From an uncultured Alphaproteobacteria bacterium (GTDB taxonomy: Bacteria > Pseudomonadota > Alphaproteobacteria > Rhodobacterales > Rhodobacteraceae): a DNA stretch of 64,000 nucleotides. The stretch covers positions 1-64,000 of the forward strand of contig CACFNV010000002.1 in NCBI GenBank assembly GCA_902567635.1, in the 5' to 3' direction. Position 1 is the stretch's first letter. Each line of letters begins with the position of its first letter. Position numbers and translations under genes: made by a program. A model generated the notes under the pieces. It saw nothing but the letters and a program-made list of their open reading frames with translations. It did not search any database and was not told the DNA's origin. Positions 2,117 through 4,595 of the stretch are shown in pieces.

Positions 2117-2845
2117 TTAACTAAATATTTTTGACTTATTTGCCATGATTTTTTCACGATTACTCATCATTAATTGTCGTCTATCACTAATTCCTTTTTT
2201 ATTTTCCATCAGCGATTCAGAGTTTTTTTCTGAGGTAGATATTAATGACTCCATTTTTGCACGGTTAGAACTGACTCTTTCTTCCAGTTCTGTCATCATT
2301 TTTTGGTTGTTTTCGATAGTGGTTGCATTTGAGTCAGGAGTAGCTTTAGAAGTCTGTAGATCGCCTCCTAAAAGAGAACTATTCATGTCTATTTGTTTCT
2401 GATTGAATTCAACAATCTCTTGATTAGACTCCATAATCCTCCTGTTGATATCTATCAATCTGGAGTTTATTTCTGCCATTTCCTCGCTGATTGATAGCAC
2501 AGCGGAATTTAAAGCAGACCGATGATTTAAGAAATCAAGTGCTGCTTTATTTTTTTGAGAATTTATAAAATTTTCCTCTACCTCATTATTTGACTCAGCA
2601 TTGTCTAAAATAGCCTGCCTATTTTCAAAAATCTCATCAGTATTGCTATTCGCTATTTGTCTATTGCCCATAAATGCTGCTGCATAGTTGCTAAGTATCA
2701 TTAATCGATTTTCTTCTATCATTGATCTAGAAGCGTATATCATGGTCTTATTAGTCATAACTTGGGAATCTATCTCGAAGATTCTCTTTTTGTTTTTTTT
2801 TATCGCTTCTCTGTTTGCTGATACATCACTCATAATTCCCTCCAT
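2117..2845 (-). CDS. Uncharacterised coiled-coil protein made of Asn-first heptad repeats
   Basis: 242 aa ORF; Asn (or Ser/Leu) every 7 residues through three runs with hydrophobic residues at +3/+4. Confidence 0.8.
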   Translation of the reverse strand: MEGIMSDVSANREAIKKNKKRIFEIDSQVMTNKTMIYASRSMIEENRLMILSNYAAAFMGNRQIANSNTDEIFENRQAILDNAESNNEVEENFINSQKNKAALDFLNHRSALNSAVLSISEEMAEINSRLIDINRRIMESNQEIVEFNQKQIDMNSSLLGGDLQTSKATPDSNATTIENNQKMMTELEERVSSNRAKMESLISTSEKNSESLMENKKGISDRRQLMMSNREKIMANKSKIFS

Positions 2846-3011: not shown

Positions 3012-3347
3012 TTAAAGCGGGTCTTCTTTTTCTAAATCACGAACACTGACAATATCTCTCCAAACCTTATTGTCTTTCCATATTTGGACGTTAGTTGTTT
3101 CCCATTTTTTCCCGCCATGTTCAATCAAAACGTCCCTCCAGGCCAACAAATCCTTATTCTCAATTATAAGTTCAAGCTTTTCAAAAGTTAAACCTTCATC
3201 AAATCTCTTTTTTATGAATTCAACCATCTCATCTTTTGGAATTAAAGTGGTTTCTCTAAGATATAAATATTCATCATGCAAAATGTTTTCTAATCCTTCA
3301 AAATTTTTATTTTTTATTAGTTTAGTAATTGTTTCCCACTTATTCAT
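3012..3347 (-). CDS. NTF2-like / DUF4440-type small protein
   Basis: 111 aa; WETITKLIKNKNFEGLENILHDEYLYL… pattern typical of NTF2-like folds. Confidence 0.5.
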   Translation of the reverse strand: MNKWETITKLIKNKNFEGLENILHDEYLYLRETTLIPKDEMVEFIKKRFDEGLTFEKLELIIENKDLLAWRDVLIEHGGKKWETTNVQIWKDNKVWRDIVSVRDLEKEDPL

Positions 3348-3653: not shown

Positions 3654-4058
3654 CTAAAGTTCACCCTTTTCCCTTAGGTCCCTCCTAATTTTTGTCGCAC
3701 TAATGTCAGTTATGGATTTATCAAAAACTTCCTCTTCGAAGACATAACCAACTCCTCTTCCATAAGTGATATTCACAATGTTTGGAACTAACATTATTTC
3801 AAATTCCTGACCACGCTTGAAGCCCTCTTTTTGCAGATTTTCTTCTATATTCTTACAAACAGAAACCCAACTAAATGGATTGTCATCTTGACCGACTCCT
3901 CCTGAAGAGCCTTCAACGTCTCTAACTTGAATGATGACTTGACCTGTTTTTGCAACACATCTCTTAAACAGTTCTTTGTGACCATCGTGCCAAGGTTGCC
4001 ATCTTCCCAACATTTGCACTGTGGGCTTTTTCCAATCAAACATTTTTCGGTACTCCAC
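3654..4058 (-). CDS. nucleotidyltransferase (cytidylyl/adenylyltransferase-like)
   Basis: GRWQPWHDGH (HxGH signature) and ISATKIRRD (ISxTxxR signature). Confidence 0.75.
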   Translation of the reverse strand: MEYRKMFDWKKPTVQMLGRWQPWHDGHKELFKRCVAKTGQVIIQVRDVEGSSGGVGQDDNPFSWVSVCKNIEENLQKEGFKRGQEFEIMLVPNIVNITYGRGVGYVFEEEVFDKSITDISATKIRRDLREKGEL

Positions 4059-4187
4059 GTTTTTTATATTTGAATATTTTTTGCCTAATTAATTTTTAAC
4101 GCAAGGTATATTTAGGTATATTTAGTTAGTAACTACCTCAATCAAGATAGTAAATATAGTTTTTAAAGATAGGTTGAATTTATATAT

Positions 4188-4595
4188 TTAGCTCCTCAAA
4201 ATTTTTTCGGCTATTGTTTTGTGATTGGTTTGATTCCATTCGGTGATATGAAAGTCAACATTTTTGGGTTCTTGGAATAGTCTATTAGTATCTTCAAATC
4301 TTCCTGCTCCAATCGTGTCCATCCAAATAATTATATCCGCATCAAATTTTTCCCTAGTTTCTTTTGTTGGGCATACAAAATCACAAATAACAAGGCGTCC
4401 ATTTTGTTTCTCAAAATCTGCGATACACCTCATCCTATTTGCTTGGCGTATCCTTGCGGTTTCAGAGAAATCCCAATCATTTGCCATCTCTCTTACTTTA
4501 TCGGCATTGTACCAAGCGGCTTGAAGGAGAGGAGCTAATCTTTCTGATAAATAAGTTTTGCCGCTTCCTGGCAAGCCCATGACTAGGATTTTCAT
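4188..4595 (-). CDS. P-loop kinase, adenylylsulfate (APS) kinase-like
   Basis: Walker A GLPGSGKT; YNADKVREMANDWDFSETARIRQANRM resembles CysC. Confidence 0.7.
   Translation of the reverse strand: MKILVMGLPGSGKTYLSERLAPLLQAAWYNADKVREMANDWDFSETARIRQANRMRCIADFEKQNGRLVICDFVCPTKETREKFDADIIIWMDTIGAGRFEDTNRLFQEPKNVDFHITEWNQTNHKTIAEKILRS

Follow-up and report, generated by a model that had tools for sequence, protein, structure and literature searches.

A gene on the minus strand of the window (the whole 64,000-nucleotide stretch of DNA analysed here) encodes a 242-residue protein in which most heptads are headed by asparagine, and which is a real member of an undescribed bacterial protein family. 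The explanation that we lean towards, and think somewhat probable, is that the protein is a single-chain, cytoplasmic rod of three antiparallel helices with layers of asparagine in its core. Core layers of asparagine are chiefly familiar as rare inserts that destabilise trimeric coiled coils, and a natural protein that keeps many such layers across a wide bacterial range would allow a test of how helix pairing is specified by buried polar ladders.

The gene and its asparagine heptads

The interval delimited in the first-pass annotation was borne out as a coding region and assigned to the minus strand (Table 1), the plus-strand frame across it being interrupted by many stops. The in-frame extension upstream of the ATG consists of HKP only, and inspection of the N terminus (MEGIMSDVSANREAIKKNKKR) by eye revealed no hydrophobic stretch, signal peptide or transmembrane segment. 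Relatives at 38–69% identity keep the length of the 242-residue protein, and a near-identical copy of the gene differs from it by 13 synonymous and 3 nonsynonymous base changes. The gene is therefore real, and the conserved length and purifying selection rule out a low-complexity or spurious open reading frame.

Asparagine accounts for 30 of the 242 residues and heads 24 of the approximately 31 heptads counted by eye. At lags of 7, 14 and 21 residues there are 13, 12 and 13 Asn–Asn pairs, compared with an expectation of 3.3–3.5 ± 1.6 (3.5 at lag 7) from 20,000 shuffles, none of which reached the observed counts, and such pairs are depleted at lags 3, 4 and 11. This confirms the Asn-first heptads reported in the first-pass annotation, whose division of them into three runs is also broadly correct, although run 2 starts near residue 92 and not 113, and run 3 near 173 and not 180. 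The heptad phase changes near 82–92 and 155–173, and a one-residue skip at 53–61 means that the Asn period is not unbroken.

Ten relatives have 42 invariant columns, of which 18 hold Asn, almost always in phase with the heptads, and Asn is the most conserved residue type; across 16 members, 86–95% of ladder cells are headed by Asn. A register profile of 16 members places a hydrophobic residue at Asn+4 in runs 1 and 3, and additionally at +5 in run 1, whereas in run 2 hydrophobic residues occupy –1, +3 and +4, so that Asn lies centrally on the hydrophobic face. Over the cells of helices 1 and 3 in this profile, position +4 is hydrophobic in 67–89% and Asn is present in 86–93%. Of the hydrophobic positions +3 and +4 originally described, the latter thus holds in all runs and the former in run 2 only. 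Since the hydrophobic residue follows four positions after Asn, runs 1 and 3 have Asn at d and Ile at a; judged from sequence, their pattern is [I/V]xxNxxx, the register of chloride-binding trimeric coils, and it is only run 2 that could be read with Asn at a. The most conserved patch of the protein (NYAAAFMGNRQIANSNTDEIFENR), which holds the one-residue skip, may form a binding site with D104, F105 and H108 and with R222 and R223.

Table 1. Location of the asparagine-heptad gene, its sequence and structure features, and related or neighbouring loci (coordinates refer to the window unless a locus is named)
Feature	Residues	Location	Strand	Details
Asn-heptad protein gene	242 aa	2117–2845	minus	ATG start at 2845
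Run 1, heptad-heading Asn	11, 18, 32, 46, 53, 61, 68, 75, 82			Assigned by eye
Run 2, heptad-heading Asn	92, 99, 113, 127, 134, 141, 148, 155			Assigned by eye
Run 3, heptad-heading Asn	173, 180, 194, 208, 215, 229, 236			Assigned by eye
Predicted helix 1	2–81	2603–2842	minus	AlphaFold2; Asn 11, 18, 32, 46, 53, 61, 68, 75; Asn at d, Ile at a (+4)
Predicted helix 2	88–162	2360–2584	minus	AlphaFold2; Asn 92, 99, 113, 127, 134, 141, 148, 155; hydrophobic at –1, +3, +4
Predicted helix 3	170–241	2123–2338	minus	AlphaFold2; Asn 173, 180, 194, 208, 215, 229, 236; hydrophobic mainly at +4
Most conserved patch	53–76	2618–2689	minus	From invariant columns
Divergent member between fliO and fliP		L067:6599–7687	minus	FliM, FliO and FliP confirmed by Pfam
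Divergent member between fliO and fliP		L069:6986–7711	plus	FliO and FliP confirmed by Pfam
Divergent member between fliO and fliP		L090:6995–7708	plus	Recognised by likeness to L067 and L069
DUF1538, P-II, small P-II-like, Asn-heptad unit		L063:6986–10326	minus	Near-overlapping genes
DUF1538, P-II, small P-II-like, Asn-heptad unit		L071:6980–10279	minus	Near-overlapping genes
DUF1538, P-II, small P-II-like, Asn-heptad unit		L072:6977–10304	minus	Near-overlapping genes
Octadecabacter plasmid copy and flanking transposases		L026:8663–12024		IS6 transposases on either side
111-aa protein		3012–3347	minus	No Pfam match
Similar copies of the 111-aa protein, sister genome		L091:13000–13320; L091:14489–14965
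Nucleotidyltransferase-like protein		3654–4595	minus	GRWQPWHDGH motif; no Pfam match
Beta-lactamase-fold neighbour		709–1878	plus
Beta-lactamase-fold neighbour, sister genome		L091:8572–9717	minus

Predicted fold and competing assemblies

AlphaFold2 models of the window protein are entirely helical, the best having a pLDDT of 91 and a pTM of 0.70; the underlying alignment held six sequences, and pLDDT ranged from 63 to 91 over the five models. A relative of 45% identity (L024) was modelled with helices at 4–77, 84–155 and 166–241 (pLDDT 92, pTM 0.68), and in both of these divergent members each Asn run coincides with one predicted helix. The proposal of the first-pass annotation that a helical repeat carries a polar Asn ladder is supported both by these all-helix models and by the family-wide conservation of Asn; rather than a single long coil pairing in parallel, the prediction has the runs as three helices within one chain. 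In Foldseek searches the top match of both models was a designed three-helix bundle, 4tql (probability 0.99, E 0.04–0.05, with a low TM score of 0.38), and neither model had a match at E ≤ 0.001; for the antiparallel packing of the helices these matches are an indirect indication. Viral fold matches were to generic coiled coils only.

An antiparallel fold predicts a common Asn offset between helices 1 and 3, and a constant sum of Asn positions when helix 2 is paired with either of them. Of 80 offsets tried for helices 1 and 3, 162 scores best, against about 163 expected from the turns. For helices 2 and 3 the best sum is 328, with about 332 predicted by the turns, and for helices 1 and 2 a sum of 166 (predicted, about 169) ranks second, the top-scoring value of 145 being far from the turn geometry. 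With these values, N-N-N layers number six out of ten, namely 11-155-173, 18-148-180, 32-134-194, 53-113-215, 68-99-229 and 75-92-236, of which the last two require a shift of the offsets by one, owing to the skip at 53–61; within that shifted stretch alone, the offsets used are not the best-scoring ones. The matching Asn occupancy of helices 1 and 3 would arise by chance about once in 21 cases (near 0.05). On the basis of these positions, an antiparallel three-helix bundle would have ten core layers, about six of which would bring together Asn residues from all three helices, and the register of helix 2 differs from that of helices 1 and 3, as would be required of an antiparallel helix placing its Asn in a common layer.

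As we envisage it, the soluble cytoplasmic chain would fold as a long antiparallel three-helix coiled coil with about 75 residues per helix, the three predicted helices being joined by two short predicted turns and packing as one antiparallel bundle. The core would alternate hydrophobic layers with Asn layers fed by all three helices, whose Asn side chains may hydrogen-bond mutually, possibly around water or chloride. This polar ladder would fix the register and pairing of helices otherwise prone to slide or mispair, and a structural or adaptor rod so built would hold a partner at its conserved end (residues 53–76, 90–117 and 208–229). Trimeric coiled coils repeatedly use Asn at d combined with Ile or Val at a as a layer that binds chloride, each Asn-at-d layer lowers stability, and two such layers blocked the assembly of engineered GCN4 trimers in solution (PMC12933892); six Asn layers would therefore be demanding.

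The motif and register of runs 1 and 3 also fit a parallel homotrimeric coil of the type seen in trimeric-autotransporter stalks, in which the [I/V]xxNxxx layers would come from three chains, with one chloride per Asn triad (PMC12933892). Weak PDB profile matches include the autotransporter stalks EibD (2xzr, E 0.012) and UspA1 (2qih, E 0.021), and a single-sequence PDB search returned a designed construct rich in Asn (6nx2, E 0.027) and nothing else. We nevertheless consider such an assembly unlikely, as the register of run 2 differs, the breaks at 82–87 and 163–169 cut the chain into near-equal thirds at points where both models leave the helix, and the protein has neither signal peptide nor membrane anchor. 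A C-terminal YadA-type membrane anchor was not found by Pfam, and in the AlphaFold2 model the C terminus is helical up to residue 241; with anchor and signal both lacking, a trimeric autotransporter is rejected. Hardly any weight can be given to a GCN4-like parallel dimer with Asn at a, the analogy drawn in the first-pass annotation, for although run 2 is readable as Asn at a with hydrophobic residues at +3, in runs 1 and 3 Asn is at d and the hydrophobic residue at +4 rather than +3, and the breaks between the runs rule out one continuous dimer of the 24 Asn.

The single-chain antiparallel rod would stand apart from the systems that it most resembles. It has the core-Asn [I/V]xxNxxx heptads of runs 1 and 3 in common with the Asn-at-d chloride-binding trimers (engineered GCN4 variants, for example 2wpy), which hold one to three layers, but it is one chain, predicted to be antiparallel and many-layered, with a middle run in another register and with neither export signal nor membrane anchor. 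The de novo bundle 4tql is the best fold match of both models, and 6nx2, the "design construct AAA" with IVENN-type repeats, is the best single-sequence match in PDB; in contrast to both, the Asn-heptad protein is natural and conserved, with predicted Asn layers along the whole rod, and it has no significant homology to either. Spectrin-like and other natural three-helix bundles have the topology also predicted here, although the heptads of the present protein are headed by Asn rather than Leu and it has no Pfam match.

Distribution and descent of the family

No homologue of the family was found in Pfam, NCBIfam, PHROG, PADLOC or PDB. None of the ten members scanned against Pfam had a match over the cut-off, nor had any of 21 members in NCBIfam, and this includes the curated flagellar family models of both collections; neither of the results that the first-pass annotation had named as refuting its reading, a match to a well-characterised family or modelling devoid of helical repeats, was obtained. 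Matches to LiaX, Nesprin, phasin and similar proteins (E 0.002–0.2) fall far below cut-offs and are typical coiled-coil noise. A defence role was rejected, the PADLOC matches being scattered and limited to one member each (E 0.004–0.008), and spike-protein matches in the PDB profile search (E 0.01 or worse) are weak and taken to be chance resemblances among heptads rich in Asn and Gln. As no relatives occur in IMG/VR, GenBank phages or PHROGs, a phage tail fibre or tail needle was discarded too.

A sister genome carries a copy 99% identical to the window protein. Within the genus, most of the genomes sampled, the sister genome among them, encode a second copy that is about 38% identical to the window protein; a search of the window's own assembly, only 58% complete, did not detect it. 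Relatives at 45–69% identity are present in metagenome-assembled genomes (MAGs) labelled Gammaproteobacteria and Pelagibacterales, and one of 56% identity lies on an Octadecabacter plasmid, where the IS6 transposases on either side represent a possible transfer route. Strong full-length matches occur in 7 of 386 genomes of the class; in a sample of the phylum the family was detected in 1 of 399 genomes, and in two orders in 5 of 28 and 6 of 196. The distribution is patchy and falls in mostly small proteobacterial genomes, the hosts being apparently marine in the main. In the phylogenetic tree the window protein groups with proteins from gammaproteobacterial MAGs (support 98/95) and is separate from the copy found across the genus, which suggests horizontal transfer, tentatively so in view of the MAG labels and long branches.

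Genomic context and possible partners

We infer that the function of the protein is most likely that of a cytoplasmic structural or adaptor rod, for which the flagellar machinery is, with some hesitation, the best current lead to a partner. Tentatively, the family may provide a flagellar accessory (for assembly, as a chaperone, or as a rod on the basal-body side), a role compatible with the bundle fold, and the window protein would then be a relocated member. In three gammaproteobacterial genomes (L067, L069 and L090) a divergent subfamily member, X, is encoded on the operon strand within the order fliK-fliL-fliM-fliN-fliO-X-fliP-fliQ-fliR-flhB, and in L076 another divergent copy is separated from a flagellin gene by about 0.7 kb. 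FliP is encoded in 17 of 18 sampled strong carriers, compared with 10.6 expected (p about 3e-4 over three samples, phylogeny and genome completeness being ignored); of 20 family-bearing genomes screened for FliP, 18 have it. This co-occurrence is a lead. Against it, two family-bearing genomes (G786 and G1004) have no detectable FliP, five FliP-bearing genomes of one order are without the family, and neither the window gene nor its closest relatives have flagellar genes close by. In L092, the section read of the flagellar cluster of the window genome, no family member is present.

FliJ and FlgN are cytoplasmic helical coiled-coil proteins encoded in flagellar loci; the Asn-heptad family matches none of the proteins of this type, and the window gene is located elsewhere in its genome. 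The fliO–fliP interval is an unusual site for an extra gene, on which a literature search returned nothing useful, and the subfamily located there would give gammaproteobacterial flagella an unnamed candidate part. The fullest version of this scenario, in which the fold of a new family is set by at least six Asn triads in one chain, with a file of chloride or water, and the protein serves streamlined marine bacteria as an accessory rod of flagellar export or the motor, would be a long shot.

Alternatively, the protein might act as an adaptor for P-II-like regulators and a DUF1538 membrane protein. In three genomes (L063, L071 and L072) genes for DUF1538, P-II and a second small P-II-like protein are followed by the Asn-heptad gene, all on a common strand and at most 15 bases apart. 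This neighbourhood is, however, confined to one subfamily and absent for the window gene and its near relatives, and Pfam confirmed P-II for just one of the two small proteins, which makes the adaptor role distinctly improbable; nothing useful was found in the literature on DUF1538 with P-II.

A conserved operon was not found for the close relatives of the window gene. In the window, the gene comes after that of the 111-residue protein, at a distance of 166 bases; this protein apparently has two further similar copies, NTF2-like by eye, close together with the gene's counterpart in the sister genome. Farther along, a small nucleotidyltransferase-like protein adjoins an adenylylsulphate-kinase-like protein, and the pair is conserved in the sister genome. 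The beta-lactamase-fold neighbour has an N-terminal stretch clearly different from that of its counterpart in the sister genome, while the 40-odd following residues that were compared are almost identical in the two.
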